The notes under the pieces were generated by a model that saw nothing but the letters and a program-made list of their open reading frames with translations, was not told where the DNA came from and did no database searches. From Nitrospiria bacterium (GTDB taxonomy: Bacteria > Nitrospirota > Nitrospiria > SBBL01 > JAADHI01): a DNA stretch of 39,658 nucleotides. Below, in pieces: positions 6,308-31,636 of this stretch; the first letter of the stretch is position 1, and every line of letters begins with the position of its first letter. The position numbers and the translations under genes are program-made. The stretch lies in contig CALZIJ010000001.1 of NCBI GenBank assembly GCA_945787655.1, positions 65,726 to 105,383 of the forward strand. The letters run 5' to 3'.

Positions 6308-6324
6308 AGCAACCACCGTGCCAA
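6308..6324 (-). promoter_or_regulatory. Sigma-54 (RpoN) promoter of the DUF2292 / redox operon
   Basis: On the minus strand the bases read TTGGCACG-GTGG-TTGCT, an exact match to the sigma-54 consensus YTGGCACG-N4-TTGCW. The -12 GC is at 6309-6310, so transcription should start near 6297, about 25 bases before the DUF2292 ATG. An enhancer-binding protein should be required for its activity; none is encoded in the window. Confidence 0.88.
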
Positions 6325-13961: not shown

Positions 13962-14684
13962 TTGGCATCCTACTCTATAATTATTCCTGCATATAATGAG
14001 GAAGCCTTGCTTCCTCACTCACTTCAAGCCATCAAAGAAGCCATGCGGGCAATAGATCTGCCGGGTGAATTGATTGTGACCGATAATCATTCAAGTGATC
14101 AAACGGCGGCCGTTGCACGGCAGCACGGGGCAACAGTTGTTTATGAAGCCGTGAATCAAATCTCTCGTGCTCGCAACACCGGAGCACGGGCAGCAACAGG
14201 CCAATACCTGATATTCGTGGATGCGGATACGAAGATATCCGAAGATTTGTTACGCACAGCCATAGAAAACCTTCAGAGTGGAAAATGCGTCGGCGGAGGC
14301 GCGTTGGTTACTTTCGACCGGGAAACCGGATGGATGGGGAAATGGATGATCCGGTTTTGGATGTGGGTTTCCCTGAGGTATCAACTCGCAGCCGGAAGTT
14401 TTATCTACTGTCTGCATGCCGCCTTTGAAGACGTGGGCGGGTTTAGTCAAGCCGTTTATGCGGGTGAAGAAATTCTCCTGACCAGTGCACTCAAAAAATG
14501 GGGACAGCACCACCGGAAACATTTTGAGATCATCACTGACTTTCCCGTGCTGACCTCTGCCCGAAAACTCGATCATCCCGCCCGTGTGGTTTTAGCGACA
14601 CTGATCTGTATCTTCTTCCCTTTTTCAATCTACTTTAAAACCCTCTGTGGATATTGGTACAAACGGGCAGCAACCCGGTCCTAA
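13962..14684 (+). CDS. Family 2 glycosyltransferase
   Basis: The 240-residue protein has a GT-A fold. It opens with SIIIPAYNEEALLPHSL, followed by the nucleotide-sugar strand LIVTDNHSSDQTA (38-50) and the metal-binding DAD at 87-89. The C-terminal part has a conserved GGF and a single hydrophobic segment (about 208-228) that may tether it to the membrane. Such short GT2 enzymes transfer sugars to lipid carriers or other acceptors; donor and acceptor cannot be inferred. The start is TTG after AAGGAAA. Its 3' end overlaps by 4 bases the convergent TPR/barrel gene. Confidence 0.85.
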   Translation: MASYSIIIPAYNEEALLPHSLQAIKEAMRAIDLPGELIVTDNHSSDQTAAVARQHGATVVYEAVNQISRARNTGARAATGQYLIFVDADTKISEDLLRTAIENLQSGKCVGGGALVTFDRETGWMGKWMIRFWMWVSLRYQLAAGSFIYCLHAAFEDVGGFSQAVYAGEEILLTSALKKWGQHHRKHFEIITDFPVLTSARKLDHPARVVLATLICIFFPFSIYFKTLCGYWYKRAATRS

Positions 14685-16231
14685 AACTCCGCACTGACAA
14701 ACACCCCAAAAATACTGCGCTGGTAATCATAAACGGGAACATTCGAGTGATTGTTCTGGTAGAGATATTGGGCGGATAGGGTTAAAATCTCCGTCATGGA
14801 CCTTGAAACCATTCCTATAAAAAGAAAATCATTATCTTCCCGCTCCACCTGGGGAGTGGCGGCACTGTTTAAGTCTGTATAATCCCGGCGGACCAGGTCC
14901 GTTTCAAAGGAAAAAACCAGCGTTTTCCATGAGGGCAGAGTCAGTCCAAGATTAATACGGTGACCATAATAACTCCAATCATCCTCGTCCGCACTGTTTC
15001 CTGCGTCTTCTATTTCAAACTGATATCCCCCAAAAAAATGTCCTTTGTCTCCAAACAACACAATGTGATTCGCCCCGAACTGGTGGATATCGGCATCCCG
15101 ATTGGTATTCCCCGCAAACAGCGGCTCGATATTCTCAAAACTTTTATGACCATATCTGTAAACAAACTCACTGTAATGATTGTTTTCATGTTTGACAGCG
15201 AAACGAGGGCCAATCCCGTGATGTTTTAAATAACTATCCCCTCCCAGTGAAACATATTGAAACTCGTAAACCAGACTCAGTTCATGCACACCGATTTGAC
15301 GTCGTCCCGTCAGAATGAGCTGATGGTCCTGGATATTAAAATCGTCCAGATTGCTTTCAAAATGCACATTTTGAAAAAACCGATATTCAATGGTGCTGCT
15401 CCACTGGTCTTTCTTCAGCCAATCATATTGCCCTTTTAAATAAAAGACTCCCAGGAAATCATCCTTATCCGTAATACCGGAAGAGACCGCGCCGCCCCCC
15501 GGATCAAGCACCACATTGTCATCGTATTGAAACCCGAACGAGGTCAAAATCTTCCAGGGCTTTTTATCTACGGATTCGCTTTCGATCAGCCGAATAAAAT
15601 CCTGGGCCGGACCCGAAAACTCCCCCTGAGGCTCCAGAGCCAGCACTTCCTGAAATTTTACTTTTGCCGAATCCGCAGCACCCGCTTCATATTCAGAAAT
15701 ACCCGTCTGGAAACTCACAAGGGTCGCAAGGTCCGGATCAAGTTGAACGGCTTTCTGAAGCTTGAGATCGGCCTCTTTCGGTTTTCCATTTCGACGCAGA
15801 ATCAGCCCCTGATAATAATGAACACGGGCCCGTCCCGGATCGACCGATTCTACAATTTGAAGCGCCTTCATCGCGTCCTCATCTTTTCGAATTTGAAAAT
15901 AGAGCACCCCCAAATCAAACCGGGCCGGGATGAAGGTCCGATCGATGGACAGCGCTTTTTTAAACTGGGCTTCTGCTTCGCGATCCCGGTTAGACCGTGC
16001 CTGCACGACACCCAGATAATAATGCGCTTCCACTCCGTTGTTGTCCTGTGCAATCGCCGATTCAAATTGCTCCAATGCCGCATCAAGATTGTTACGATTC
16101 AGTTGCGCCACACCGGTCGAAAGAAAATCATAGTATGGCCCATTAACTTCGGCCTTTAGCACTGCGGGCATGCTGAATATGAACAGAACGGTCAGAAAAA
16201 AAAGTCGACTTCCAGGCTTGGACAATAACAT
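14681..16231 (-). CDS. TPR plus outer-membrane beta-barrel protein
   Basis: The 516-residue protein has a signal peptide (1-27), five or six TPR units (about 33-215, e.g. VEAHYYLGVVQARSNRDREA), and then a roughly 290-residue stretch of alternating aromatic strands ending VFVSAEF, typical of a C-terminal barrel. TPR-plus-barrel proteins include exporters of polysaccharide (PgaA, BcsC) and of surface lipoproteins (Slam). Its length and the two large lipoproteins encoded just upstream make a Slam-like role attractive, but the barrel sequence was not recognised. It is the last gene of the 13-gene minus-strand cluster, and no terminator follows before the convergent glycosyltransferase. Confidence 0.75.
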   Translation of the reverse strand: MLLSKPGSRLFFLTVLFIFSMPAVLKAEVNGPYYDFLSTGVAQLNRNNLDAALEQFESAIAQDNNGVEAHYYLGVVQARSNRDREAEAQFKKALSIDRTFIPARFDLGVLYFQIRKDEDAMKALQIVESVDPGRARVHYYQGLILRRNGKPKEADLKLQKAVQLDPDLATLVSFQTGISEYEAGAADSAKVKFQEVLALEPQGEFSGPAQDFIRLIESESVDKKPWKILTSFGFQYDDNVVLDPGGGAVSSGITDKDDFLGVFYLKGQYDWLKKDQWSSTIEYRFFQNVHFESNLDDFNIQDHQLILTGRRQIGVHELSLVYEFQYVSLGGDSYLKHHGIGPRFAVKHENNHYSEFVYRYGHKSFENIEPLFAGNTNRDADIHQFGANHIVLFGDKGHFFGGYQFEIEDAGNSADEDDWSYYGHRINLGLTLPSWKTLVFSFETDLVRRDYTDLNSAATPQVEREDNDFLFIGMVSRSMTEILTLSAQYLYQNNHSNVPVYDYQRSIFGVFVSAEF

Positions 16232-16268
16232 GTGTACTCCTAAAATTTATTGATTATCGGCCTTTGCA

Positions 16269-19200
16269 TCAAGGCACTTTAAAGATTTCTATTTGGTCTA
16301 TTGCAAACCCCTGTGTAGACGGTCTGTTGTTTGTCATATCAATTGAAATTTCAGACAAATCACAGCTTGTTTCCGTATCGGGCCCGGGCACGCAAATTTC
16401 GAAACCCTCGTAAATGTCTTTCCCGTCAACACGCAAACTGGAAACTTTTTCATCAAAATCGAGTGTAAATTCAAATAATTGAGAAACCCCCGCTTGCCAC
16501 GGCACGACGCTTTGATCAATAAAGGAGACACCTTCTTCATCATAGATAAGGCCTGTCATGAACGCGCGAATACTGTCTCGAACAATGATCGTGACATTCG
16601 CATTCGTCAAGGTACTCGTCACCAGTGACCGCCATCGGATCAGATAAACACCGGTATTCGGCGGCTTTCCAGCCACCAAGCCATCCAAACCAAAACGGCC
16701 TTCATCGGAGACATTGAGAACAAGCGGTTTTTCGCCCAAATCACCCGCCTTCTCCTGTACCAGAATGGTGCCGTCCAGGTCCGGGTTTAAGCGTAATTCA
16801 AGCTGGTCCCCCTCAGGGTGTCCGGGAAGTGTTGTGTTTGGCGGTTTCGCCACATCGTCCTGATCAAAGAACGCACGAAAAATAGCAGTGGACCTGAAAT
16901 TGGCTGTCACCGTTTTGTTCGCATCCATCGTAACATTGCACGACGTAAAGCCCGCGCCGTCACAACCCGACCAGTCCGTAATCGTAAAATCGGAATCCTC
17001 GGCAGGCTCCGCTGTAAGCGTGACATTCCGGCCGAACGGAAAATTGGCCGAAACCCTGGTGCATCCACTGCCGCAATCAATGCCCCTCGGTGTGCTAAAG
17101 ATGCGTCCACTGCCTGTCCCCGTTTTAATCAGGGTTAAGGTTCGCGTATCCAGGGTAAAGCTGGCTGTACAGCTTTTGTCCCGATTCATCGTCACTGACC
17201 CGCCTTCGCATTCTGCGGCATCCGGCCCGCTCCAGCCCGAAAAGGTTGAGCCGGGACTCGGATCAGCACGCACCGTCACGACACTCCCAAAATCATACGT
17301 CCCCGCACCACTTATTGTCCCCGAACCCGTGCCTGCAGTCGGCAGGCTTAAGCTGTGCCTGACCGTGACATCGTCATCCTGATTGGTCACAAAAACAGTG
17401 GCTCCCTCACTGCCATAATCCGGATCGCTGCTTGTTGCCGACAAGATAATTTCATAATTCTGAGGACCATCCACAATCGTGTCGTTTACACCGGTAACGA
17501 CGACCGGTTGGGGTGTTTTCCAGTTTGATGCATCAAAACTGAGGGATGCAGGAGAGGCGGTGCCTTCTGCCGGTCTGTTTGATGTCAGCACGATGGACAC
17601 GTCGCTTTCGGGTTGTGTACCGAGGGTGACCATAAAGGTATCAAAACCGCCTGCTTCCGTGGTCACCAGTCCGGTGTCCGGTGTCGCGCGGATACCGATA
17701 TTGCATGCGCCATCGGGGGTTTGTGTGGCGCCGCCATCATCTACATCGCTATCAATTTCTAATAAAATATCGACACCCGGAATGGTGTCCGTATACGTGC
17801 CCACGGTGGGCGGCTCATGATCCCATTGATTATTCTGTGCGAAAAGAAGCGTCCCCGTATTCACAAACAGATCTGCATCGATATTACAACTCAGGATGTT
17901 TTGTCCGATACTCCCGCCTTCGCTTCCCAAATCCGGGGCCGCGGTATCGAATACGGACACCCCGGTCAGATTATCGGAGATGATATTGCGCTCAAGCACG
18001 GGGGCGGCTTCATCCATGATTTCGATGCCTGTAACGTTTCCAACAAAGGTGTTTCCTGTAATGCGGGGCATTGCGGTTCCGCTGACCCGGATGGCCTGAG
18101 AAAATCCCCTGAAATCATCTTCCCCAAAAACGTTGTTCTGAATCAGAGGCGCACCGGCATTATTCGCCAGGATGGCGATTGGCGATAAACAGTCTCCCGC
18201 GCAGGTGGTCTTAAAGATATTGTTTGTAATGATGGGCGCGGTCCCGTTGGTTTCAATAATGCGTTCAAATGAGGGGCTGCTTTGAATGGTAAATCCAGTC
18301 AACGTGGCATTGTCCGCACCCTCTATCGCCGTGCTCGTTGTTGAACCCGGAAGCACAAAATCAATGATCGCCGGACCATCCGGCCCTGACGCACTGCTTA
18401 AAATGACTCCTGATTTTAATGGGAGCGGGGCAATTTCACTCCCGGTACCTGAACCAAAAGCATAGACACCCGGCGCGGCCAGAACCATTTCCCCCGGCGC
18501 CGCCAAGCGCATCGCATGGGTCAAGGTTCTACAGGGCGCCGTTTCGGTCCCGCAGTCCGGGGTGTCCTCACCGATGGACACACTCACATGACGAACCCGA
18601 CCAAACAGGGTCACAGCGGATTCATCAAAATAAAGCGCAGGATCGGTATCACTGGCCCCTTTGACGATGATGGGCAAGGTAGAGGGCAATCGGTCCGGGG
18701 CTGTATAAATCGCCGTATTCACATCGGATGGCGTGATTGTGCCGACTATTTCGTTTCCGTTTGGTTCATTATTGACAAACCATTGCGTTTCATTATGGTC
18801 AAGGAGGGGGTGAATTGTGGTGCTGAAGGTTTGAGTCTCCCCTATGGCGACAGCGACTTCTTCGGGGTCCAGTGCAACCGGCGGTGAAACCGTGATGGGC
18901 AAAGTGATTTGTGGGCCCACTTCCAGATCGGTGACTGCCCGGCCGTAAAACTGGACCTTCCCTTCTGCATCAAAAGCATCCACAGTGAATGTGCGGTCTT
19001 CGCCAGCCAAGACATTTAGCGTCAGTGCTACAGGCTCACCCGGCGTGACTTTGGCGGCATCTCGCGCCAATTCAGTGTTGTTGGCATTGGTCACCACAAC
19101 CCGGACTTCCTGGATAACCGGAGGTGCGCCTGTCGCCATACGGGTTTTGGTCGACCCTTTCTGTCCCACATTGCTGATGTCGATTGAAATCCCGACAGCC

Positions 19201-19337
19201 GTTGTGTTTTCAGAACCTGCGTTAGGGGCAGCCCCTTCCTGACCGCAAGAGGACATTAAAAAAAAGAAACACAACAATAAAACAGGGAACAGGCTTAAAG
19301 CAGGTTTTTCAAAAACTTTTTTGTTCGCAATGCGCAT
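16269..19337 (-). CDS. Very large surface lipoprotein with right-handed beta-helix and Ig-like/InlB-B-type repeats
   Basis: The 1022-residue protein has a lipoprotein signal ending LMSSC (C31). Residues 45-150 are a beta-sandwich domain shared with the 728-residue lipoprotein nearby. An Ig-like unit with WFVNNEPNGNEIVGTI and AIYTAPDRLP follows (about 155-240). A right-handed parallel beta-helix of the DUF1565 type (about 250-530, repeated N-N-x-F/I turns such as ITNNIF, IQNNVF, ITGNTF) comes next. A Calx-beta-like region (about 565-660) precedes two InlB-B/'bacterial repeat' units ending TASFTLD and TVTANFRS. A C-terminal jelly-roll-like domain closes the protein. This is the build of a surface adhesin or glycan-binding protein; no catalytic residues were identified. 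Confidence 0.8.
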   Translation of the reverse strand: MRIANKKVFEKPALSLFPVLLLCFFFLMSSCGQEGAAPNAGSENTTAVGISIDISNVGQKGSTKTRMATGAPPVIQEVRVVVTNANNTELARDAAKVTPGEPVALTLNVLAGEDRTFTVDAFDAEGKVQFYGRAVTDLEVGPQITLPITVSPPVALDPEEVAVAIGETQTFSTTIHPLLDHNETQWFVNNEPNGNEIVGTITPSDVNTAIYTAPDRLPSTLPIIVKGASDTDPALYFDESAVTLFGRVRHVSVSIGEDTPDCGTETAPCRTLTHAMRLAAPGEMVLAAPGVYAFGSGTGSEIAPLPLKSGVILSSASGPDGPAIIDFVLPGSTTSTAIEGADNATLTGFTIQSSPSFERIIETNGTAPIITNNIFKTTCAGDCLSPIAILANNAGAPLIQNNVFGEDDFRGFSQAIRVSGTAMPRITGNTFVGNVTGIEIMDEAAPVLERNIISDNLTGVSVFDTAAPDLGSEGGSIGQNILSCNIDADLFVNTGTLLFAQNNQWDHEPPTVGTYTDTIPGVDILLEIDSDVDDGGATQTPDGACNIGIRATPDTGLVTTEAGGFDTFMVTLGTQPESDVSIVLTSNRPAEGTASPASLSFDASNWKTPQPVVVTGVNDTIVDGPQNYEIILSATSSDPDYGSEGATVFVTNQDDDVTVRHSLSLPTAGTGSGTISGAGTYDFGSVVTVRADPSPGSTFSGWSGPDAAECEGGSVTMNRDKSCTASFTLDTRTLTLIKTGTGSGRIFSTPRGIDCGSGCTRVSANFPFGRNVTLTAEPAEDSDFTITDWSGCDGAGFTSCNVTMDANKTVTANFRSTAIFRAFFDQDDVAKPPNTTLPGHPEGDQLELRLNPDLDGTILVQEKAGDLGEKPLVLNVSDEGRFGLDGLVAGKPPNTGVYLIRWRSLVTSTLTNANVTIIVRDSIRAFMTGLIYDEEGVSFIDQSVVPWQAGVSQLFEFTLDFDEKVSSLRVDGKDIYEGFEICVPGPDTETSCDLSEISIDMTNNRPSTQGFAIDQIEIFKVP

Positions 19338-19372
19338 TTTTAAACTCTTTAATTTTGTTAACTTACTCCGGT

Positions 19373-20623
19373 TTATGGAAAATCAATCACAACCTCGACA
19401 GGAACTGTGGTGCCGCCGGCACCACAGGGGGGTGTGCAGGTCGGCGGCAATACAATTGGACGCTCGATATCGGGAAACCGCGTTGTCGGAATACGCACTG
19501 CTGCTTCAAAACGAAAGGGAAGCTCCCGGGTTTTATCAATGGACTCCGCTCCTGAAATAATTTGATCCATCGGCAATAACAACAAAGGGGTTTCCAGCAA
19601 GGCTTTTCTTGCAATCTCAAAATTCGGGTCTTCCTCAAGGGCCAACACAAAAGAACGGGCGGCTTCCCGGTAATTGTCTTCATCGAAATGTTCCAACCCT
19701 TCGGAAAAATGCTGAAAGGCCACAAAGTTTTTGGTGTGTATCTTTTCAATGGCCAAACGGGTTTGATCATCCAGGCTTTCCGGGCAATACCCAATACCGC
19801 AAAGCAATTTAAAAACAAGCATTTTTTCCAGCGTATAAAAAGAAGCCAACTCCCCCGTGGTATCCACTGTGGAGACATTCTTTCCACTTTCGGTTTGGGT
19901 CACCGTGGCGTCGATCCGCATTTTTTCATCGTCCAGGTCTAACAGGCTGCCAGAGGTAAAACGGGCCGCGCCCACGAGTTTACCCATTCGGGGAGCGCTT
20001 AAATCACTGACAAGACCGGACTTCGCAAGCTTGAGTTCATTCAGAACCGCCTGAATCTGAATACGCTCAACAACGGTCAAGCCCTTCACTTTTGCAAGAT
20101 CCGTAATAATCATCGCCGCAAGGCCCTTCGAGAGCGGGGCATAGGTCTCCGATCCTTTGTTTTCAAAGGGATAGACTGCAATCGCCTTCGGATCCAACTG
20201 CGTTGCAAGTTGTTTTTCCTGACTAATTTGTTCTTTGGCCACCCGTTGGGCTTCCTGTTTTAAAAGCTGGGTTAAATATTGTGAAATCTGACGTCCGCTT
20301 TCACTCCCTTCTTCAAGCTGAACATAATTTTGCCAGGCCTGAATGGCCAGGGATTGATTCCCTAATCGAAGGTGGCTCAACCCCAGATAGAGGGATTGTA
20401 TGGCGCTCCAATCCTCAGAACCTCCAAGCGCCGAAACCACGTCATTGTATTGGCCGGCACTGTAAAGTTTTTTAATCTCTTGGTCGTCAATGCCGGGAAT
20501 CGCCCAACTGCGGACGGGCATGAACACCATGATCAAGATAGACGCGGTTAACAAGCGCCGTAAAAACATGTCTTTTTTAAGCAGATGAAAACCGCCTTGC
20601 ACTGTATTATTTTTCTGGAACAT
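19373..20623 (-). CDS. Secreted TPR / CsgG-like protein
   Basis: The 416-residue protein has an N-terminal signal (hydrophobic core about residues 25-37, cleavage near WAIPG), a TPR-like helical section (45-125), then a CsgG/FlgO-type alpha-beta domain (about 145-275). That domain begins AIAVYPFENKG and contains TDLAKVKGLTVVERIQIQAV, the family's hallmark VVER region. A second TPR pair follows (about 300-345), then a proline-rich tail with a CTPPCGAGG pair. CsgG domains form or assist outer-membrane secretion channels or bind peptidoglycan-side partners. The ATG at 20623 has AGGAG 10 bases upstream. It is one of four CsgG-type proteins in the cluster. Confidence 0.75.
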   Translation of the reverse strand: MFQKNNTVQGGFHLLKKDMFLRRLLTASILIMVFMPVRSWAIPGIDDQEIKKLYSAGQYNDVVSALGGSEDWSAIQSLYLGLSHLRLGNQSLAIQAWQNYVQLEEGSESGRQISQYLTQLLKQEAQRVAKEQISQEKQLATQLDPKAIAVYPFENKGSETYAPLSKGLAAMIITDLAKVKGLTVVERIQIQAVLNELKLAKSGLVSDLSAPRMGKLVGAARFTSGSLLDLDDEKMRIDATVTQTESGKNVSTVDTTGELASFYTLEKMLVFKLLCGIGYCPESLDDQTRLAIEKIHTKNFVAFQHFSEGLEHFDEDNYREAARSFVLALEEDPNFEIARKALLETPLLLLPMDQIISGAESIDKTRELPFRFEAAVRIPTTRFPDIERPIVLPPTCTPPCGAGGTTVPVEVVIDFP

Positions 20624-20645
20624 AATGACTTCGCTCCTATTATTT

Positions 20646-20662
20646 AATCCTTTTAAAGGATT
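20646..20662. repeat. Short palindrome between two cluster genes
   Basis: AATCCTTT-T-AAAGGATT is an 8-bp perfect dyad in the 90-bp gap before the TPR/CsgG gene. No T run follows. It could be a regulator site or an mRNA hairpin. Confidence 0.35.
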
Positions 20663-20713
20663 AGCTCACTTCTATTTAAAACTTAAAGTTCCCATTCCTT
20701 TTATTGAGAGGCA

Positions 20714-22900: not shown

Positions 22901-23008
22901 ATTGATCCTTTATTCCGGCTTATAACCCACACCAGAATGACAAATCTTACAATGAATAGGGTTCATATCAGCTCGGCCTGGACTCTCCGAGTGCACTTTT
23001 TGCAGACA

Positions 23009-23725
23009 TCATTCGATGGCCATCATCATCAAGGTTTCCATTCGTATCTTTGCGCGCTGGTTTTCAGGGTTAATTGAAAGGGCCTTTTGGTACGCCATCA
23101 TCGCTTGGTCAATATTATTTTCCTGTTCATATTTCAAACCAAGCTGCAAGTAATCTTGGCTGCTCTTGGGTTCAAAAGTGGTTTTCCCGGTTTTTTTTAG
23201 AAAAAGGCGGCTCGTTTTTTCCGAAAAAGAGCGCTCCAGAATCGGCCTTTCCGCGACTGTACCGTTCATTGAATACGAACCGACAATTTCCCCGCTCTGC
23301 ACTTCAACGAAACGTGCATCAAGCCGAAGGTTTCCAAAAATTTCACTGTATTCCCCCATCAGCAGGTAATGCACCCCCAATAATTGCCCCAGTTGAAGAC
23401 GCCCTTCTTCATTGGTGATGCCTTTGCTCGATAGGGAAAGTTCGCTTAGAAGCTGATCAATGGATTCCCGGTCGATCAGTGAAATCCCCGAAACCCCAAA
23501 AAGTTGTTCTGAAATACGATCCGCCACGGTTCTTGCCAGGCCCAGCGTTTCGGGTGAATGGCTGATACTGTGATCCTCAAAAGGTAACACGGCCACAGTG
23601 AGCACTTGTGGCGGTTTAGGCGCTGGACTGATGCGCGTAGATTTTCCGGAACACGCAGGTACCATACTCAATGTCACGGACAAAATCAAAAGATGTTTAA
23701 AAATTTTTAGACCCTTTTCCCACAT
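23009..23725 (-). CDS. CsgG/FlgO-like lipoprotein with TPR tail
   Basis: The 238-residue protein has a signal peptide with lipobox-like MVPAC (C25). It contains a single CsgG/FlgO-type domain (about 40-180) beginning LTVAVLPFEDHS, with the signature ISLIDRESIDQLLSEL followed by QLGQLLGVHYLLMGEYSE. One TPR unit (about 190-225) follows. FlgO and CsgG relatives sit in the outer membrane; lipidation here fits that. The start lies inside the upstream gene (29-base overlap) and has only a weak ribosome binding site, so translation is probably coupled to the upstream thioredoxin/TPR/CsgG gene. Confidence 0.8.
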   Translation of the reverse strand: MWEKGLKIFKHLLILSVTLSMVPACSGKSTRISPAPKPPQVLTVAVLPFEDHSISHSPETLGLARTVADRISEQLFGVSGISLIDRESIDQLLSELSLSSKGITNEEGRLQLGQLLGVHYLLMGEYSEIFGNLRLDARFVEVQSGEIVGSYSMNGTVAERPILERSFSEKTSRLFLKKTGKTTFEPKSSQDYLQLGLKYEQENNIDQAMMAYQKALSINPENQRAKIRMETLMMMAIE

Positions 23726-25622
23726 TCTCGAGTACTTTTTGATCCTTTAGAATGGGTGCGTTTTTTTCAGTCAGCTTCCCGTAAGACATCCCTTCTTCAA
23801 CAGAAACAATCTCAAGCAGTCCGACTTTTTTCTTGCGATGGCCAATCACTTTTCCATCAATAATAATGGCCTCTCCATCTGCGATAATTTTCATCACGGT
23901 TCCGGTCTGAAGACCATGCTTTCGGCCCAGATTAACGATCACCTGTTGACCTTCTTCAACCAGCGCAATCTTTCCCCGCAGCGGATAGGAGTTTTGAATG
24001 CGTTGATTCAACGATTTTCCGGTAGACTCGGCCAGCGCCATCAGGTTTTTATTCGGTCCCATTTCATCGGCATAGGCAATCTTGACAGCAGAGGTTTCAG
24101 GGTCGATGACACGAAGGCTGAGCCGAATACCGTTAGGAATTTGCACCAGTTTTCCAGTGACGATCAGCCGTGCGGCAAGAATTTTACCCAGTTTCAAGGC
24201 CGTTTCAGGGTCGGCCAAATCCGAAGAACCCAGTTTGAGTTCGAGAAGAAGTTTCTCCAGTATTTCACGCTCCACAACAGAGACACGCGAGTTGGACATC
24301 ATTTGTTGTGCAATTTCCTGTTGAAGGACTTCCGCCATCCCTTCCCGCAGTAAACCGCCGCCAATGGATTTCAGCCCTAAAAATGCGATCGTCATCGGTC
24401 GGGAAGACCACCTATCCATCATCGTTTCTGGCTGCTTATCCCCTTTTTTAAATCGGTCGGCCAGTTCATTCACAAGCTCATCCACTCGTTTCTGCCGGGC
24501 CATGTCTTCTTTAAAATCAAGGTGTTGCACAATCCGTTTTGTCAGCAATTGCGCGACTTCGTCGGCCGGGTTTGCGGTCAGTGCTTCCTGATAAAAAGCC
24601 AATGCCTTTTGGGGCTGCCCCTGTTTTTCATAAAGAGCACCCCGATTGGTCAATATTTCAGAGGAAAACGGGTTTTGGTTCACTGCTTCCTGGTACATTG
24701 ATTCGGCCTGATCATATTCCCCGCGTTCCGAATGAATGCGTCCGGCCTGGTTATAAGCTTCTGCGCGCTGCCAGTCATTGCTTAATTTTCCTTCAATGGC
24801 TTCGTTATATTCAGACAAAGCCCCATTTTGATCTCCACGGCTGGCCAGGACGTTGGCCTTGATAAGATGAACCAGGCCATTTTCAGGGTCATCTTTTTTT
24901 ATTTCCTCAGCCACCGCGATGGCTTGAGCCGTTTCTCCTTTTTCAAGGTGTATTGCAGCCAAACCTTCTTTCCCTAAAAGGGCCTCTGGTGTATTTAATG
25001 ACACGACCTTTGAAAAAGCATCTTCAGCCCGATCGAGCTTGCCTTCTTTTAAAAAGACTTCCCCTAAACCGGTTTGTGCGGCCACATTCTCTGGGTCTTT
25101 CTCCAAAACCTTTGCATAGAGGTTTTTGGCGAGCGCATTCTGTTTTAACTGCATACTTCTCTGCGCGACCGTGGTCATAAACTGTTTTGAAGAAGGGCCT
25201 CCACCTTGAAGCGTATCGGTCACCCGGCCGCCAGGGCCAAGAATAACCGTGGTCGGAAGAATAATCTGGATATCGTAATCCTTAAATATTTTTCCCTGAT
25301 CTTCGATGACCGGGAAAGGCAAGTCCGCTTTTTTTAAATATTGGCTTAACCCTTTTGACGACCCTTTGCTAATGGCAATCACCTTAATCCCGGCTTTTTT
25401 GTAGAGTGAATATTGGGTCTTGATTTCTTCCAGCCCGCGTACCGAAGGTTTGGAGGGGTGTGTAAAAAAATAAAGGATCGTCATCGGGGATTTTTCACCG
25501 GATTTCAGTGCGTTGAAGGCCGGGGGGACACTTCCTTTATTAAGCGCAGCGTCGACCGTCGAATAGCCCGAAAAGCTAAGAAGAATCAGAGCAAATATCA
25601 TCCAATTTCTATATTTTTTCAT
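23697..25622 (-). CDS. Cysteine-free thioredoxin-fold / TPR / CsgG-like fusion
   Basis: The 641-residue exported protein has three parts. Residues 28-150 are a redoxin/TlpA-like thioredoxin fold: strand MTILYFFT, then SKPS (57-60) exactly where CxxC should be, and the cis-Pro loop ILPTTVIL near 123. Residues 155-360 are five or six TPR units. Residues 405-545 are a CsgG/FlgO domain (MTIAFLGLKS..., VSVVEREILEKLLLEL), followed by a C-terminal beta domain (about 548-630, VNLGRKHGLQTGTVMKI) like the end of FlgT. I find no cysteine in the whole protein, so it cannot do thiol chemistry; the thioredoxin fold is probably a binding module. It overlaps the kinase gene by four bases (ATGA). Confidence 0.8.
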   Translation of the reverse strand: MKKYRNWMIFALILLSFSGYSTVDAALNKGSVPPAFNALKSGEKSPMTILYFFTHPSKPSVRGLEEIKTQYSLYKKAGIKVIAISKGSSKGLSQYLKKADLPFPVIEDQGKIFKDYDIQIILPTTVILGPGGRVTDTLQGGGPSSKQFMTTVAQRSMQLKQNALAKNLYAKVLEKDPENVAAQTGLGEVFLKEGKLDRAEDAFSKVVSLNTPEALLGKEGLAAIHLEKGETAQAIAVAEEIKKDDPENGLVHLIKANVLASRGDQNGALSEYNEAIEGKLSNDWQRAEAYNQAGRIHSERGEYDQAESMYQEAVNQNPFSSEILTNRGALYEKQGQPQKALAFYQEALTANPADEVAQLLTKRIVQHLDFKEDMARQKRVDELVNELADRFKKGDKQPETMMDRWSSRPMTIAFLGLKSIGGGLLREGMAEVLQQEIAQQMMSNSRVSVVEREILEKLLLELKLGSSDLADPETALKLGKILAARLIVTGKLVQIPNGIRLSLRVIDPETSAVKIAYADEMGPNKNLMALAESTGKSLNQRIQNSYPLRGKIALVEEGQQVIVNLGRKHGLQTGTVMKIIADGEAIIIDGKVIGHRKKKVGLLEIVSVEEGMSYGKLTEKNAPILKDQKVLENVGKGSKNF

Positions 25623-27085
25623 GGCTTCTCCTCCAGTAATTTCAGGTTAAGTGGCGTTTTTTGACCAGAGGGCACATCAATTGTCGCTTCCAGGGCATGG
25701 TATCCTTTTTTAGAAACAACCAGCTCGTGAGAACCCGCAGGCAAGGCCAGCGACACAGGACTCGTACCTTTGTGAATGCCATTAATCTCGATATCCGCCC
25801 CGGTGGGTGACGTTGCAAAAATGACCTCGCCCGTCAGCATTAAAGGCGGCGTCTTTTCCAATTTCTGTTCTTTTAAAGTATTGGATTTTACTTCAATATC
25901 CGATTTTGGGGCCTGCCCCTTACGCGCGGGTTTCAGAAGGGGAGAAGGCTTCGTCAACTCAGGCTGTGAAAGAGGGGAGGGTATTTTTGAAACTGAACCG
26001 GCAGAACGGGGTTCATCCTTCACCGGCCTTTGGATGACAAACAATATCGCAAAAACCGCAAGTACGGCCACCGGCAACACATATATTACCGGCCTCTTCC
26101 ACAAAACCCTGCCCCTGTTTTTCGGAGATATTGCGGTTTTCGGGGAGTCACCAGCCCCCTCTGAAGAAAAAGTGTTCGCCACCACTCGGGTTTCAAGCAT
26201 TTTTTCCAGATCTGTAATTTCTTCAGTCATCGATTCGCTTGTGGATTGATCAGAAGAAAACTCGGCTGTCTCTTCAAGTGATAGTAATAAGGCATCCGCC
26301 ATCTCCAGGCCTGAAGAAAAACGGGCATCGGGTTCTTTTTCCAGAGCGCCCATGATGACGGCACTTAAAGATTCATTGGTGGTATCGGTCACCAGATAGG
26401 GCGCATAGGGCGTATGATTTAAAATCTGGTGCATAATGCTGGTCACTGAATCCCCATGAAACGCCTTTTGTTGTGTCAAAAGTTCATAAAGTAACGCGCC
26501 CACGGCAAAAAGATCAGAACGTCCATCCAGTATCTCTCCCCGGCATTGTTCCGGGGACATGTATTGAGGCGTACCCGCCAAGTGATTGCTTTGTGTCAGA
26601 CCGATGCTATCCAGGCGTGCGATACCGAAATCTGTAATTTTAACCGTTTGCAGATCTTCTGAAAGCAGGATATTTCCGGGCTTAATGTCCCGGTGGATCA
26701 CATCTTTCGTATGGGCAAAATGAAGCCCCTTACAAACTTGAATACCGATGTGAACAATTTGCTCCGGCGTGAAGCGGGTTTCTTCTTTGATCAGTTTCGC
26801 CAGGGAAGTGCCTTCAACATACTCCATGACGATGTAGGTGTTATTTGATGAAGTATCTTCCCAGACATCAAAAATGGTGACGATATTGGGGTGGATCAAT
26901 CGTCCGAGCGCACGAATTTCCTGTTCGAACCGGCGGCCTGCACTTTCATGCGCTTCCAGAATATGGGGCCTTAAACACTTTAATGCCACATCACGATTAA
27001 TTTTCGGATCTTTCCCGCGAAAAACGATTCCCATCGCGCCGCGCCCGATTTCTTCAATCATCTGATAACGCATTGGTGTTTCCAT
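25619..27085 (-). CDS. Transmembrane Ser/Thr protein kinase with periplasmic PEGA domain
   Basis: The 488-residue Hanks-type kinase has all key residues: glycine loop GRGAMG (14-19), K36, E56, HRDIKPGN with D133, DFG at 152-154, and GTPQYMSPEQ in the activation/P+1 region. It should be catalytically active in the cytoplasm (residues 5-270). An acidic linker leads to one membrane helix (about 333-351), a Lys/Pro-rich periplasmic spacer, and a C-terminal PEGA domain (about 418-485, with the family's GTSPVSLALPAGSHELVV-type core). PEGA domains are surface or envelope binding modules. The gene lies 9 bp after the protease gene and overlaps the thioredoxin/TPR/CsgG gene. It probably senses the state of the envelope or of the secreted proteins. 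Confidence 0.92.
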   Translation of the reverse strand: METPMRYQMIEEIGRGAMGIVFRGKDPKINRDVALKCLRPHILEAHESAGRRFEQEIRALGRLIHPNIVTIFDVWEDTSSNNTYIVMEYVEGTSLAKLIKEETRFTPEQIVHIGIQVCKGLHFAHTKDVIHRDIKPGNILLSEDLQTVKITDFGIARLDSIGLTQSNHLAGTPQYMSPEQCRGEILDGRSDLFAVGALLYELLTQQKAFHGDSVTSIMHQILNHTPYAPYLVTDTTNESLSAVIMGALEKEPDARFSSGLEMADALLLSLEETAEFSSDQSTSESMTEEITDLEKMLETRVVANTFSSEGAGDSPKTAISPKNRGRVLWKRPVIYVLPVAVLAVFAILFVIQRPVKDEPRSAGSVSKIPSPLSQPELTKPSPLLKPARKGQAPKSDIEVKSNTLKEQKLEKTPPLMLTGEVIFATSPTGADIEINGIHKGTSPVSLALPAGSHELVVSKKGYHALEATIDVPSGQKTPLNLKLLEEKP

Positions 27086-27094
27086 TTTGATCCC

Positions 27095-28561
27095 TTATTG
27101 TTCAGCTTCCACGGCACTCAACCACTGACCAACCTGAACGGCATCCGCTGATCTGGGTTTTAATTCCAGATATTTCCGATAATGCATGGCCGCCTGCTTT
27201 CGTTTATTCAAATGATTATCATACAGAATACCCAGATTGTAGTGCGCCTCGGCATACCCTGGATTACTTAAAACAGCTCTTAAATATGCCGTTTCCGCGG
27301 CTTCATACTGTTTAAGTCTGCGATACACCTCGCCTAAATTATTCAGGGCCTGAGGCGATTCCGGCCAAAAATTACTACTGCTTAAGAGGGCATCCGCCGC
27401 GTCATTATAGCGTTTTGCCTCGGCAAACAAGTTTCCTATTTGCAGGAACGTTTCACCGAGAAAATGCCGGACTTCCCGCGCAGGCAGCGCAAAAGCGATC
27501 CCCTGCGCATGTGGAAGCATGCCAACAATGACCCCCAGGACTTCTCCTCCTTTGTTCAATAAGGGCCCGCCGCTGCTTCCAGGATTAATGGCCACATCGG
27601 TTTGCAAGAGGTATTTATCACCAATTCTCCGTTCCGGGGCACTGATAATCCCTTGTGACGCAGTGTGATTAAGGCCAAAAGGACATCCCACAGCCAAAAC
27701 AGGGTCGCCCGCCTGGGGAGATTTTTCGCGATTGAAACCCAACGGTTCCATACCTTGAAAGGGAATTTGAAGCAGTGATAAATCAAGCGCATCACTCACT
27801 GAAAGCAATGTTGCCGGGTAAGTGCTCCCGTCCTGAAATTGCGCGGTCAGACGGATTGCACGTTTTACCTGATGACCGCTGGCTAAAATGTAGCCGCCTT
27901 TCCCGACCATGAACCCACTGCCTTCAACTTTTTTTCCACCTGCCGTGCCGGTAATGCAAACAACCTGGGGGAAAACACCTCTTTCCACAGGGCGGCCGGC
28001 AGACGACTCCGGCACGACTGGGGAAACTATGGGTGGCTGCAAGAGTTCCCCGGCCAAGGGATCAGGCGCGGTATGAGATAAATTTCGACGATTAAACGAC
28101 CCTTTTTCACCTGCGATCCGGGTTAATTGGGCTAACTTATTTTGGGCCTTGGGGGCAAGCGGGTGGCCGGGGGCCATTTTTAGAAAGCGCCGATAATGAA
28201 AAATGGCCTGAACGGTGTCTTTTTTTTCAAAAGAATACAGATTTGCAAGATTATAATGCGCTTTGAAGTGTTTCCTGTCGATACGAACCACCTCACGGTA
28301 ATTCATAATGGCATCGTCTATTTTTTCCATACGCTGGTAAATCACACCCCGCTTAAAATAGGCTTCCGTATTTTCGGGGTCATGTTGAACTGCTTTATCC
28401 AGATGAGAAAGGGCTTTTTCCCAATTTCCCTGGTCATAGGCAATCAACCCCTCTTCGAGGTCAGTGGGCCCTGTGCCAGTCGGCGCAACGTGCCGAAAAC
28501 AGCCCGTGAGTCCGGTTAAGGCAAAAACAAAGATTACGGTATTGAGGATATTTTTAGTCAT
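27095..28561 (-). CDS. TPR / trypsin-like (HtrA-type S1C) protease / TPR lipoprotein
   Basis: The 488-residue protein has a lipobox GLTGC (C21), three TPR units (about 33-135), a Pro-rich linker, a trypsin-fold protease (about 195-370) and two or three C-terminal TPRs (about 375-475). The catalytic triad is intact: H230 in ASGHQV, D260 in DALDLSLL and S330 in NPGSSGGPL. No PDZ domain is present; TPRs take its place on both sides and may present substrates. A lipid anchor puts it in the envelope, where it could process or check the cluster's secreted proteins. It has its own sigma-70 promoter and is the first gene of a tightly packed run with the kinase and CsgG-type genes. Confidence 0.88.
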   Translation of the reverse strand: MTKNILNTVIFVFALTGLTGCFRHVAPTGTGPTDLEEGLIAYDQGNWEKALSHLDKAVQHDPENTEAYFKRGVIYQRMEKIDDAIMNYREVVRIDRKHFKAHYNLANLYSFEKKDTVQAIFHYRRFLKMAPGHPLAPKAQNKLAQLTRIAGEKGSFNRRNLSHTAPDPLAGELLQPPIVSPVVPESSAGRPVERGVFPQVVCITGTAGGKKVEGSGFMVGKGGYILASGHQVKRAIRLTAQFQDGSTYPATLLSVSDALDLSLLQIPFQGMEPLGFNREKSPQAGDPVLAVGCPFGLNHTASQGIISAPERRIGDKYLLQTDVAINPGSSGGPLLNKGGEVLGVIVGMLPHAQGIAFALPAREVRHFLGETFLQIGNLFAEAKRYNDAADALLSSSNFWPESPQALNNLGEVYRRLKQYEAAETAYLRAVLSNPGYAEAHYNLGILYDNHLNKRKQAAMHYRKYLELKPRSADAVQVGQWLSAVEAEQ

Positions 28562-28614
28562 TTTCTCGATTATGTTTTGAATAAAGGTTTATTTTTCGTC
28601 CATTTACTAAGGGC

Positions 28615-28643
28615 ATTCTAGGACAGCCCACCTATATCGTCAA
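28615..28643 (-). promoter_or_regulatory. Internal sigma-70 promoter before the TPR-protease gene
   Basis: On the minus strand TTGACG (28638-28643), 17 bases, TAGAAT (28615-28620), each 5 of 6 to consensus. The predicted start near 28608 leaves a 47-base leader. It would uncouple the protease/kinase/CsgG genes from the sigma-54 promoter upstream. Confidence 0.75.
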
Positions 28644-28663
28644 GGGTTCTTATGAGACTGTTT

Positions 28664-29722
28664 TTACTCAAGGACTGCATAGGCTTTATCACTATGATTT
28701 AAACGTGTGATCTCAGCTCCAGTCGGACTTCCATTGTTCAATCCCGGTTGAGTCACAGGTCGGGCAAAGCGTACGATATCGCCTTTTTTCGGCAGCACAC
28801 TCCCCCGGACCATCCGCGCCTGAGAAAACTTTTCTTTGCTTGAAATGACCCCCAGTTCCCCAATCGGGTTTTCGATTAAGCCGACGACCTGATTGGTTTC
28901 TGGATCGGTCAATACTTTTTTTATGGAAAAAACAGAGAGGCGGTCACCGACCTGCACATGCGCATTTGTCCCTGCATTAACATAAACAACCTGGTTTTCC
29001 ACGTGAATGACTTTCCCCAGCCAATTTGAATAAGATTTCAGCCGCTCCTGAACGGCACCTAAAACAAATCGAAGGGATTCTCCAATCACTTTTCGGGTCG
29101 CTTTTCCCAACGGTGTTTTGTGAAATGCATCCCCGCCAAAAGTAAAAAGCGGAAAACTGAAATCTACAGCGAGCGCTTTTTCCCAGGATCGTCCTTCCGC
29201 ACGGTGTGAACTTAAGATCTCTCCTGTGGACGTATCAATGATTCTTAAATCAATGCCCACATGTGCGGCAGTGAATTCGCCTGAAGCTTTCGGGAAAATA
29301 CCAGCCAACCAGCCTGCCCGTGCGCCGCCGCCGACGGCTTTTTGCTCAAACTCGGTCACTTGACCCACAATTAAATAATCCACGCCAAGCAACTGGCCGA
29401 CTTGGGCCGCGGTCTCTTTCGTGACCAGTTTGGAATCCGTCAATTCCTGCTCCCGTAAAATTTGAGAAAGGATGGCCCGTTCCACCACAATCACCTGACC
29501 GGAATCAATGAGTTCCGTGACCAGTTGCGCAGAAAGCCCGCCACCAATATCCCAACCGCCGTAAACTTGCGCAAAACGGTCTGTCGCGCCAAAACGGGCC
29601 ACCGCGACCCGCACCTTGGCGCCCCCGGCTGCCTCTGCTGGCGATACCCATACGGGAAAAGTAGAAAACAACCCGACGATAATGAAGAGGATGACGGAAT
29701 ATATTTTTTGTGTCTTTTTCAT
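28664..29722 (-). CDS. CsgG-family protein (curli-type export/assembly factor)
   Basis: The 352-residue protein has a signal peptide (about 1-32, cleavage near AEAAGG) and a full CsgG domain: VRVAVARFGA, DIGGGLSAQLVTELIDSGQV, VVERAILSQILREQEL, and GQLLGVDYLIVGQVTEF. It also has the strand block AAHVGIDLRIIDTSTGEILS that forms the pore in true CsgG. A C-terminal extra domain (about 245-320) with beta strands and VQVGDRLSVFSI looks like an OB/FlgT-C-type fold. Unlike E. coli CsgG there is no lipobox Cys. The ATG at 29722 is chosen for GGAG at 6 bases' spacing. It is 26 bp after a small secreted protein gene and is the best candidate exporter for the small proteins encoded upstream. Confidence 0.85.
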   Translation of the reverse strand: MKKTQKIYSVILFIIVGLFSTFPVWVSPAEAAGGAKVRVAVARFGATDRFAQVYGGWDIGGGLSAQLVTELIDSGQVIVVERAILSQILREQELTDSKLVTKETAAQVGQLLGVDYLIVGQVTEFEQKAVGGGARAGWLAGIFPKASGEFTAAHVGIDLRIIDTSTGEILSSHRAEGRSWEKALAVDFSFPLFTFGGDAFHKTPLGKATRKVIGESLRFVLGAVQERLKSYSNWLGKVIHVENQVVYVNAGTNAHVQVGDRLSVFSIKKVLTDPETNQVVGLIENPIGELGVISSKEKFSQARMVRGSVLPKKGDIVRFARPVTQPGLNNGSPTGAEITRLNHSDKAYAVLE

Positions 29723-29748
29723 GACATTCTCCTCGCCTTTAAATGTTT

Positions 29749-30225
29749 TTAACATCGTTTTTCCGTTTGATTAATAATATTGACATTCACTTCGTTATTG
29801 ATACTGCCGTCATTGTCTTCCACATTTGCCTCATTGCTGGAATCGATCACAACATCTCCCAGAATGACGACACCGCCTTCTCCAGTCACTTTTTCCAGGC
29901 GGGAGCGCGCGCGGTCCGCCGCCGTACACTCCACATCGGGCGGAGTAGACGGGAAGACATTCGCACGAACGCGGATTTGTTTTTCAACACGTTCCTGACG
30001 TTGCCGCACCCCGCGCAATTCTTTGGAAAATGCTTTTGCTTCTTTTTCTTTTTTAAGTTCTTCCGGTGTTTTTTCTTTTTCGTCTTCCTTTTCGGCCTCA
30101 GCCGATTCCTGTACTGCTGCCTCACTAATAATGGGAGGGGCCGCAAGACTTTGTCCTGTCCGGCCTCCAAATAAGACTGCTAAAAGGAGAAGAAATATCG
30201 TTGTCATGATTGGCTTTGTTTTCAT
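29749..30225 (-). CDS. Secreted charged coiled-coil protein with beta-rich tail
   Basis: The 158-residue protein has a signal peptide (cleavage near SLAAPP), a strongly charged Glu/Lys helix (about 38-85, probable coiled coil), and a C-terminal Asn/Val/Asp-rich tail (VVILGDVVIDSSNEANVEDN, then NEVNVNIINQ). That tail resembles the beta/Asn-rich style of the three small proteins encoded upstream. It ends with a Cys, and another Cys lies in the middle. No known family is recognised. The ATG at 30225 follows GGAGAG. Its position directly before the CsgG-family gene suggests it is a substrate or co-factor of that exporter. Confidence 0.7.
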   Translation of the reverse strand: MKTKPIMTTIFLLLLAVLFGGRTGQSLAAPPIISEAAVQESAEAEKEDEKEKTPEELKKEKEAKAFSKELRGVRQRQERVEKQIRVRANVFPSTPPDVECTAADRARSRLEKVTGEGGVVILGDVVIDSSNEANVEDNDGSINNEVNVNIINQTEKRC

Positions 30226-30275
30226 AAATGCTCTCCTTTCAGATGGACTTAATATTTTGTTTGCCGTATTTAACA

Positions 30276-30629
30276 TTATCGATTGCTCGTCGTGGTCGTA
30301 TTGTTTGTATTATTGTGACTCTTGTTCACACCCATGATGATCGTGCTCGACGTGGTGTTAATGTCCCCGGAGTTGGAACCACCGACAGTTACCGAATTAG
30401 AGGTATTCATTTCAACACCGCTTACGACCACACTGTCTCTTAAGTTTCCAAAGTGCTGGGTCCGCTCTTCATTTTGCGCCTCTTCATTCGGCAGTTCTTC
30501 ATCATCTTCCAGATAGGCCTCGGAAGTGTCTTCCTCACAGGACATCAGGCATCCTGCTTCAATGAAAGAGACATTCCCCAAAAAGACCAGTATTCCAAGT
30601 ATGAATGCGATAAATCTTTTTTTGTCCAT
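30276..30629 (-). CDS. Small secreted protein, third and divergent member of the EAGC/GV-x-KSH family
   Basis: The 117-residue protein has a signal peptide ending ...IEAGC, with a C-x3-C pair (CLMSC) just after it, then an acidic segment rich in Glu. Its C-terminal half is Asn/Ser/Thr-rich. It shares with the two tandem proteins the DSVVV strand and the terminal motif MGVNKSHNN followed by a Thr run. The ATG at 30629 has AAGGAG 9 bases upstream. It is probably a structural or matrix-forming secreted protein, judged from composition only. Confidence 0.7.
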   Translation of the reverse strand: MDKKRFIAFILGILVFLGNVSFIEAGCLMSCEEDTSEAYLEDDEELPNEEAQNEERTQHFGNLRDSVVVSGVEMNTSNSVTVGGSNSGDINTTSSTIIMGVNKSHNNTNNTTTTSNR

Positions 30630-30674
30630 TTTTCCGGTCTCCTTAATCAAATATCGACAGGGTTTTCATCTCAT

Positions 30675-30707
30675 CTCCGGGAGGAGGGAAATCCCTTCCT
30701 CCCGGAG
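30675..30707. repeat. Strong intercistronic hairpin
   Basis: An 11-bp perfect stem (30675-30685 with 30697-30707) plus an inner GGG/CCC pairing lies between two small-protein genes. No T run follows on the coding strand, so it is unlikely to terminate transcription. It could protect the 3' end of the upstream message. Confidence 0.7.
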
Positions 30708-30719
30708 GAGAAATCCTGA

Positions 30720-31082
30720 TCACGACTGGTTTACGTTAAACTCGGTGGTTGTCCGGGAAAAGTTATCATGGCTTTTGTCTACACCCTGCATCAGGGCTGT
30801 GGAGTTGGCCTGAACCTGGCTACCGACAACATCCCCTCGGACGTGGGCGTGGGTATCCCCGGCTTCGACAGTGACGTCTTTGACCACGACACTGTCAGTC
30901 GCATTTTGCCCCATGTTGTCAATTTGATCGCCACCGATATTATCGCTGTCGTTACGGAAGTTGTTTGTGACTGATTCGTCATCGCCGCCGCAACCGAAAA
31001 GGCATCCGGCTTCGCTGATTCCCGCTGATCCTAAAATGAAGGCCAATCCTAAAAACGCTGCAATCATTGTCATCTTTTTCAT
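30720..31082 (-). CDS. Small secreted Asn-rich protein, tandem paralogue A
   Basis: The predicted 120-residue protein has a signal peptide ending ISEAGC, a C-x3-C pair (CLFGC), then an Asn/Asp/Gln-rich stretch (SVTNNFRNDSDNIGGDQIDN), a repetitive Val/Thr strand region (DSVVVKDVTV, HAHVRGDVVGSQVQ) and the terminal MQGVDKSHDN motif followed by Thr-rich residues. About 80% of residues are identical to its neighbour at 31167. Composition and small size recall curlin-like or beta-solenoid secreted proteins, but no curlin repeat is present and no family is recognised. The second ATG (31082) is chosen because GGAG is only 2 bases from the first. Confidence 0.75.
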   Translation of the reverse strand: MKKMTMIAAFLGLAFILGSAGISEAGCLFGCGGDDESVTNNFRNDSDNIGGDQIDNMGQNATDSVVVKDVTVEAGDTHAHVRGDVVGSQVQANSTALMQGVDKSHDNFSRTTTEFNVNQS

Positions 31083-31117
31083 TTTCATTTCTCCTTTTTT
31101 TTATAGTGGTTTTTTAG

Positions 31118-31150
31118 GCTGGCAGAGGCGGTAAAGCCGTCTCTGCCAGC
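31118..31150. repeat. Strong intercistronic hairpin between the tandem paralogues
   Basis: The arms 31118-31127 and 31141-31150 pair over 10 bp, with further CGG/CCG pairing towards a short loop. The minus-strand message continues with CCTAAAAAA and not a T run, so the structure probably stabilises mRNA or lowers downstream expression. Confidence 0.7.
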
Positions 31151-31166
31151 AGGACATTTCACGCTC

Positions 31167-31526
31167 TTACTGATCCACGTTAAACGTGGTCGTTGTGGTT
31201 GAGATATTGTCATGGCTTTTATCCACACCCTGCATCAGTGCCGTGGAGTTGGCTTGGACCTGGCTTCCGATCACATCGCCGCTGATGTGTGCATGGGTAT
31301 CACCAGATTCAATCGTTACGTCTTTTGCGACCACACTGTCGACTGCAAACTGTCCCATGTTATCGATTTGGTCGCCGCCAATGTTGTCACTGTCATTTCG
31401 TCTGTTATTGGTAACAGACTCGTCATCACCGCCGCAGCCGATGAAACACCCGGCTTCGCTGATTCCAACAGACCCAACAACCATAGCCAATCCAAAAACC
31501 GCTGCAAACATTGTCATTTTTTTCAT
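31167..31526 (-). CDS. Small secreted Asn-rich protein, tandem paralogue B, first gene of the cluster
   Basis: The predicted 119-residue protein has the same plan as paralogue A: signal peptide to ISEAGC, C-x3-C pair (CFIGC), Asn/Asp/Gln-rich segment, DSVVAKDVTI strand, HAHISGDVIGSQVQANSTAL, and terminal MQGVDKSHDN. Differences from paralogue A are mostly conservative. The frame is open further upstream, but that part spans the sigma-54 promoter and 5' leader. The ATG at 31526 has GGAG at 8 bases' spacing. As the promoter-proximal gene it is probably the most highly expressed of the cluster. Confidence 0.78.
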   Translation of the reverse strand: MKKMTMFAAVFGLAMVVGSVGISEAGCFIGCGGDDESVTNNRRNDSDNIGGDQIDNMGQFAVDSVVAKDVTIESGDTHAHISGDVIGSQVQANSTALMQGVDKSHDNISTTTTTFNVDQ

Positions 31527-31561
31527 TTTCATTTCTCCTTTTTTTATTGTTATTAGCGAAG

Positions 31562-31589
31562 GATGAGATTGCCCTATTGCTTTCTCATC
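31562..31589 (-). promoter_or_regulatory. 5'-leader hairpin of the secreted-protein cluster
   Basis: GATGAGA (31562-31568) pairs perfectly with TCTCATC (31583-31589) in the predicted 84-base leader. No T run follows. It may protect the 5' end or modulate translation. Confidence 0.45.
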
Positions 31590-31619
31590 TGCCAGCATCG
31601 CGTTACGGTATGGGTATGT

Positions 31620-31636
31620 AGCAAGGCGCGTGCCAA
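31620..31636 (-). promoter_or_regulatory. Sigma-54 (RpoN) promoter of the secreted-protein cluster
   Basis: On the minus strand the bases read TTGGCACG-CGCC-TTGCT, again an exact match to YTGGCACG-N4-TTGCW. The predicted start is near 31609, leaving an 84-base leader before paralogue B. This is the only good promoter found between guaA and the small secreted proteins. Confidence 0.88.

Follow-up and report, generated by a model that had tools for sequence, protein, structure and literature searches.

The window analyzed here, a stretch of 39,658 nucleotides that is part of a 3.04-Mb metagenome-assembled genome (G000), contains a run of thirteen genes on the minus strand (14681 to 31532; all cluster coordinates below refer to this strand), which we name A (at the 14681 end) to M (at the 31167 end). 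The genes are closely packed, with gaps and overlaps from M to A of +78, +69, -1, -7, +102, +9, -4, -29, +108, +90, +35, and +37 bp, and the run is bounded by a convergent GT2 gene (13962 to 14684). The longest ORF for M (from 31661) would take in the promoter, and the real start is the ATG at 31532 or 31526. A first-pass annotation of this DNA had described a minus-strand run with short gaps or overlaps behind a perfect sigma-54 promoter, and both descriptions hold (gaps of -29 to +108 bp; zero mismatches). Its list of parts also stands for the small secreted proteins, the lipoproteins, the protease, the kinase, the thioredoxin fusion, and the TPR/barrel protein, but not for four full CsgG-type proteins. 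A role as a defense system was ruled out: the PADLOC matches are to generic kinase and trypsin domains, and most of the cluster proteins have signal peptides.

The promoter (31620 to 31635, minus strand) is a sigma-54 (-24/-12) element, TGGCACG-CGCC-TTGCT (TGGCACGCGCCTTGCT), that fits the pattern TGGCACGNNNNTTGCW throughout. A site with zero to two mismatches and intact GG and GC precedes the first small gene in all 10 cluster genomes that keep the small genes, against a chance level of an equally good match in 0.25 to 4% of random 250-bp windows per genome. In one relative, G007, each of three small genes has a perfect site of its own, and two of the three are followed by an obvious terminator (judged without shuffles). 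G005, which has lost the small genes, has no sigma-54 site with up to two mismatches in the cluster region. Wherever a genome of family f5 extends over this flank, a sigma-54 activator lies directly upstream, and a different one occupies the upstream position in G008; no sigma-54 activator adjoins the cluster in the window. The conserved -24/-12 element and the upstream activators together lead us to predict a sigma-54-dependent operon. Intergenic hairpins follow M (31089 to 31166; MFE -26.2, z about -4.3), where relatives have one at the same place, and L (30651 to 30719; MFE -36.2, z -3.7 to -3.9), and three other intergenic gaps of the cluster have z values of about 0 to 1. Most relatives have hairpins behind their subunit genes, with z ranging from -1.4 to -5.7, so that the signal is unequal in strength.

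The window has a second perfect sigma-54 site (6308 to 6323, minus strand), located before a short ORF resembling DUF2292. The genes that follow downstream on this strand encode an alginate-export-like porin (4518 to 5864), a pyridine-nucleotide-disulfide/BFD oxidoreductase (1608 to 3578), and a multiheme cytochrome (219 to 1607).

The genes nearest to the promoter encode small secreted proteins that are candidate subunits. M (31167 to 31532; 121 aa) has a translation with a mature GC-xx-GC start and a GVDKSH motif, and L (30720 to 31088; 122 aa) is its paralogue; both belong to family A2, which among the 247 genomes of the class occurs only in those with this cluster. K (30276 to 30650; probable start at ATG 30629) is a more divergent member of the same family, and all three carry an invariant Cx3C immediately after the signal peptide. 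J (29749 to 30276; alignment A3; start codon uncertain) is also secreted, with a charged middle and an Asn-rich C terminus, and has two invariant Cys, one of which is the last residue (KRC-end). Disulfide links between subunits, formed through the Cys of J and the Cx3C of K, L, and M, are possible. Six true matches to J occur among 396 genomes of the phylum, all of them in the order Manganitrophales. BLAST and HMM comparisons of K, L, M, and J with Escherichia coli CsgA and CsgB gave no significant similarity, a profile match between the small proteins and J reached a 10% probability over 39 columns, which is a lead only, and an AF2 model of L from 18 sequences was uninformative (mean pLDDT 42.5). 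Rich in Asn, Ser, and Thr, the subunit proteins match none in the protein-family libraries searched and appear to form a previously unnamed family.

One gene, I (28664 to 29755), encodes what appears to be a complete CsgG-type outer membrane pore. The protein matches PF03783 above the cut-off (E value of 2.6e-30, 105.8 bits, positions 9 to 204 of 210) as well as CsgG in the PDB, it has an FlgT_C-like C terminus, and its alignment with E. coli CsgG (alignment A6) includes both membrane-hairpin regions. It scores 25 bits against the NCBIfam CsgG model (cut-off, 505). Our tree separates it from the curli clade, to which the CsgG proteins of E. coli, G005, and G012 belong (100/100), and places it among other Nitrospirota CsgG-like proteins, from which the cluster I proteins split with moderate support (70/84). 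The closest of these outside relatives have FlgT/LPP20-like neighbors (named by eye), not secreted subunits, and we found no small genes, no J, and no sigma-54 site with zero to one mismatch beside the outside relatives. The other three proteins, C (19373 to 20623; secreted, with TPR; 7.2e-10 over 10 to 103 of 210), E (23009 to 23725; a lipoprotein with TPR; 4.2e-8 over 4 to 96 of 210), and F (23697 to 25622; a Trx-like domain, TPR, partial CsgG, and FlgT_C-like region), exceed the PF03783 score cut-off over the N-terminal half or less only, without the membrane hairpins. The four CsgG-type proteins announced in the first-pass annotation are thus a single complete pore and three partial matches. 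F was correctly described as a cysteine-free thioredoxin fusion, with 0 Cys in nine orthologues (F and the eight aligned to it). Weak matches to FlgT_M/FlgT_C are present in I and F and to FlgO/LpoB in E.

CsgG proteins with an FlgT_C-like tail are found in many Nitrospirota families, in FlgT/LPP20-like neighborhoods (named by eye; L108 to L123). The only other CsgG match of the window's genome lies in an operon on contig C30 (18838 to 22389; L002) with genes for a small TPR-like lipoprotein and a GNA1162-like lipoprotein, neighbors that we take to be the DUF4810 and GNA1162-like lipoprotein families.

The protease and the kinase had been recognized as an HtrA-like TPR protease and a PEGA Ser/Thr kinase, and closer analysis agrees. 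H (27095 to 28561) is a TPR-HtrA-TPR lipoprotein serine protease (PF13365, 5.6e-27; lipobox LTGC; no PDZ match), and G (25619 to 27085) is a Hanks-type Ser/Thr kinase (PF00069, 2.9e-54) with a TM segment and a PEGA domain (PF08308, 4.1e-14). The H/D/S catalytic motifs of H and the VALK/HRD/DFG motifs of G are conserved in all complete copies. G005 retains intact motifs in both, as well as F at 65% identity, without the pore. The system had been called self-monitored, which the findings do not support beyond a kinase and a protease that look active and are conserved; F, G, and H are a putative surveillance module. Our literature search found no paper with both "CsgG" and "PEGA domain."

At the far end of the run, A (14681 to 16231) had been annotated as a TPR/barrel protein, which is accurate as far as it goes, but its Slam-like nature had been missed. 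SlipAM (PF04575) is the sole barrel family above the cut-off, with a modest score (28.3 bits, cut-off 22, over 274 to 512), and the AF2 model has TPR helices followed by 14 strands (mean pLDDT 80.6), with a pTM of 0.51 that leaves the domain orientation unsure. The best two-domain match in Foldseek is BcsC, with CymA and OmpG as further structures similar to the barrel. In having an N-terminal TPR region and a predicted 14-strand barrel (DUF560/SlipAM), A conforms to the Slam architecture in this model, and a second outer membrane export route, for lipoproteins, may therefore be present. The two large lipoproteins, B (16269 to 19337) and D (20714 to 22900), share an N-terminal region as first described. 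B has a DUF1565 beta-helix, variable repeats, and a constant C-terminal domain, and D has possibly propeller-like repeats. Among B-type proteins, the N- and C-terminal domains are kept and the repeats between them vary (InlB-type, one to six copies, or other kinds), a pattern that resembles surface adhesins. PDB sequence searches gave no match for D or for the C-terminal domain of B, which has no known relative, and no 8-strand cargo barrel was recognized in B or D.

Homologues of A are present in 143 of 396 Nitrospirota genomes. Four of the 15 neighborhoods sampled have a nearby B/D-like protein (by BLAST), and two more have large secreted look-alikes (by eye). In Nitrospirota (L144 to L158), FecR-like and CHASE2-like genes (named by eye) are frequent neighbors of these homologues, and large lipoproteins are occasional ones, which constitutes a widespread, apparently unnamed gene neighborhood.

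A scan with the F alignment of 84,980 species genomes returned eight relatives, all Nitrospirota MAGs, and the more specifically titled carriers are "Candidatus Manganitrophaceae" or "Candidatus Manganitrophus." We read 11 further genomes around F (four from the window's genus, two more from its family, and five from a second family), and the comparison of gene order that the first-pass annotation had proposed came out in favor of co-occurrence: the cluster order recurs in all 11, which belong to one Nitrospirota order. As far as each contig extends, this order is A-(lipoproteins)-C-(D)-E-F-G-H-I-J-small genes; the exceptions are G005, from which I, J, and the small genes are missing, and G007, where a lipoprotein lies beyond A. 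The chromosomal flanks vary, with guaA upstream in the window, G001, and G003 and other genes upstream elsewhere. The convergent GT2 gene adjoins the cluster in the window and three relatives and is not conserved. Of the 247 class genomes, 12 have the small proteins, and every one of these 12 has F (Fisher P of about 1.6e-19, uncorrected for relatedness). Orthologue identities are 66 to 84% for I, 61 to 77% for F, 55 to 77% for H, and 49 to 72% for C, compared with 48 to 62% for the kinase, 42 to 81% for J, 31 to 61% for the lipoproteins, and 31 to 89% for the small proteins. A conserved core with fast-evolving, presumably surface-located parts would fit a surface system.

Two genomes show the modules apart from each other. 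In G008, from another family of the order, a minimal set consists of the activator, a sigma-54 site with one mismatch, a small secreted protein, J, and I, and no other cluster genes lie beside I, J, and the small gene. G005 belongs to the same family as the window, has a completeness of about 99%, and carries its cluster locus within a contig of 156 kb. Of the cluster, A, one lipoprotein, C, E, F, G, and H are retained, and I, J, the small genes, and the promoter are missing, which indicates that the accessory genes are not strictly pore dependent. G005 also has a second A-lipoprotein-C unit, duplicated as a unit, and a canonical curli operon with CsgE, CsgG (42% to that of E. coli), and three curlin-repeat proteins (contig C43, 6377 to 12175; L124). 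G012 has curli csgG and csgF beside a gene for a large secreted protein with InlB-type repeats (L125). Curlin repeats (PF07012) had no matches in the window's genome or in any cluster genome with I, being limited to G005 and G012. Across the order, 13 genomes have I, 2 have curli, and 3 have neither, a mutual exclusion that is not significant alone. The situation in G005 is suggestive, as a link from one genome, of curli replacing the pore and subunit part.

The architecture of the cluster, its conservation, its promoter, the separable modules, and the loss of pore, subunits, and promoter in a curli-bearing relative are all documented at the level of sequence, and they give strong support to a conserved sigma-54-linked surface export or adhesion system. 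The surface fiber, adhesin, or matrix system proposed in the first-pass annotation is strongly supported to that extent, and the fiber itself, like the cargo and the function, would be a further step. Our favored reading, which we hold with somewhat better than even confidence, is a sigma-54-switched export system for new small Asn/Ser/Thr-rich proteins, built around a CsgG-type pore and curli-like without being curli; probably, it builds a surface coat or fiber through this pore. A sigma-54 activator would switch on K, L, and M and the genes behind them, with the hairpins after the subunit genes favoring a high ratio of subunit to pore. Unfolded subunits, together with J as an accessory protein or nucleator, would cross the periplasm and exit via I to form the fiber or coat. 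C, E, and F, with their partial CsgG-like and TPR regions, may surround the pore or pores as periplasmic rings or adaptors, H could clear stuck subunits, and G could report the state of the envelope to the cytoplasm. B and D, the giant modular lipoproteins, would be flipped to the cell surface by the Slam-like A and may anchor or decorate the coat there.

A bolder version, to which we give only tentative credence, is a composite secretion system in which the CsgG pore and Slam-like routes work as one assembly with non-pore CsgG-like rings, policed by H and G, that holds mineral or matrix, such as manganese oxide nodules, and in whose fiber part curli has taken over in a close relative. The integration with the Slam-like route is the least certain part.

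The genes could also encode an envelope scaffold similar to FlgT/FlgO/FlgP or LpoB, with the CsgG-like proteins as rings and the small proteins as envelope components that are not exported. The weak FlgT_M/FlgT_C and FlgO/LpoB matches, the FlgT/LPP20-like neighbors of the closest outside relatives of I, and the lack of membrane hairpins in three of the four CsgG-type proteins are in keeping with such a scaffold. However, I retains both hairpin regions of E. coli CsgG, its outside relatives all lack the small genes, J, and a sigma-54 site with zero to one mismatch, and the minimal module in G008 is exactly subunit, J, and pore, and we consider a scaffold unlikely.

We regard as rather improbable that two or three unrelated systems merely adjoin, namely, a CsgG/subunit system (I to M), a Slam-like lipoprotein system (A to D), and a stress-response system (E to H). 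The isolated I, J, and small gene of G008, the A-to-H genes of G005 without I to M and with the extra A-lipoprotein-C copy, and the wide distribution of A homologues point in that direction, but two families share the order and adjacency of the genes in differing chromosomal contexts, the co-occurrence of F and the small proteins is nearly perfect, and CsgG-type domains are common to C, E, F, and I. Export of an exopolysaccharide of the Pel/Bcs type, with A as the exporter, E as a PelC-like ring, and the small proteins and lipoproteins as matrix proteins, is quite improbable. It would account for the BcsC match of A, for the parallel with the TPR-and-barrel PelB and the lipoprotein ring PelC (PMC12141448), and for the adjoining GT2 gene in the window and three relatives. 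However, the barrel of A is predicted to have 14 strands and not the 16 of PelB, BcsC, and PgaA, SlipAM is its only barrel family above the cut-off, and the cluster has no polysaccharide synthase, the GT2 gene being convergent and not conserved.

If the favored reading of a non-curli CsgG-pore export system is true, CsgG-type secretion would no longer be confined to curli and holdfast anchors. It would include a new subunit family and have ties to a lipoprotein route of the Slam-like kind and to a module of kinase and protease. G005, which has lost exactly the pore, subunits, and promoter and has true curli, makes functional equivalence testable. The hosts are uncultured relatives of the manganese-oxidizing Nitrospirota (Manganitrophales), and the system would be a candidate surface matrix for a lineage that includes chemolithoautotrophic manganese oxidizers, whose cultures form oxide nodules. 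A paper on tunnel biofilms with Manganitrophus-like bacteria describes manganese oxidation, nodules, and biofilm settings, and a term search of the main text of a comparative Manganitrophaceae genome paper found no mention of CsgG, curli, secretion, or adhesion.

Among known systems, the CsgG-DUF4810-GNA1162-like operon has a CsgG domain in common with the cluster and differs in its other neighbors, in having no subunits, and in lying far from I in the tree. PelB, BcsC, and PgaA share the TPR and barrel architecture with A, and Pel also has a lipoprotein ring partner, PelC, but their barrels have 16 strands (PMC12141448) compared with 14 in the AF2 model of A, and synthase genes are missing from the cluster. 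With Slam, or type XI, the common features are TPR and a 14-strand barrel (PMC5449769), the SlipAM match, and neighboring large lipoproteins. It differs in that B and D have no recognized 8-strand cargo barrel and the score of A is modest, and the Slam papers cover Proteobacteria (PMC5449769, PMC8406197). The first-pass annotation had named curli and the HfaABD proteins as nearest analogies, of which the former is supported, and G005, which has lost the pore and subunit genes, bears true curli. The Caulobacter holdfast anchor consists of the CsgG-like HfaB, the small CsgA-like HfaA, and the adhesin-like HfaD (PMC6707917), and the cluster likewise combines a CsgG-like protein, a small secreted protein, and an adhesin-like protein. 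However, the gene content differs and I scores 29.1 bits against the HfaB model NF037935 (cut-off, 300), and membership was rejected. With curli (type VIII), the cluster shares a CsgG-type pore, small secreted subunits that are rich in Asn, Ser, and Thr and poor in Pro, and, adjoining these, another secreted protein that is divergent. Membership in curli was rejected all the same, since the cluster has no curlin repeats, I falls outside the curli clade, the subunits are unlike CsgA and CsgB, no cluster protein matches CsgF (PF10614), and CsgE (PF10627), which is absent from some known curli systems too (PMC3521004), was found within the order only in G005. What the cluster has beyond curli is a sigma-54 promoter, a kinase, an HtrA protease, partial CsgG proteins, a Slam-like barrel, and giant lipoproteins.
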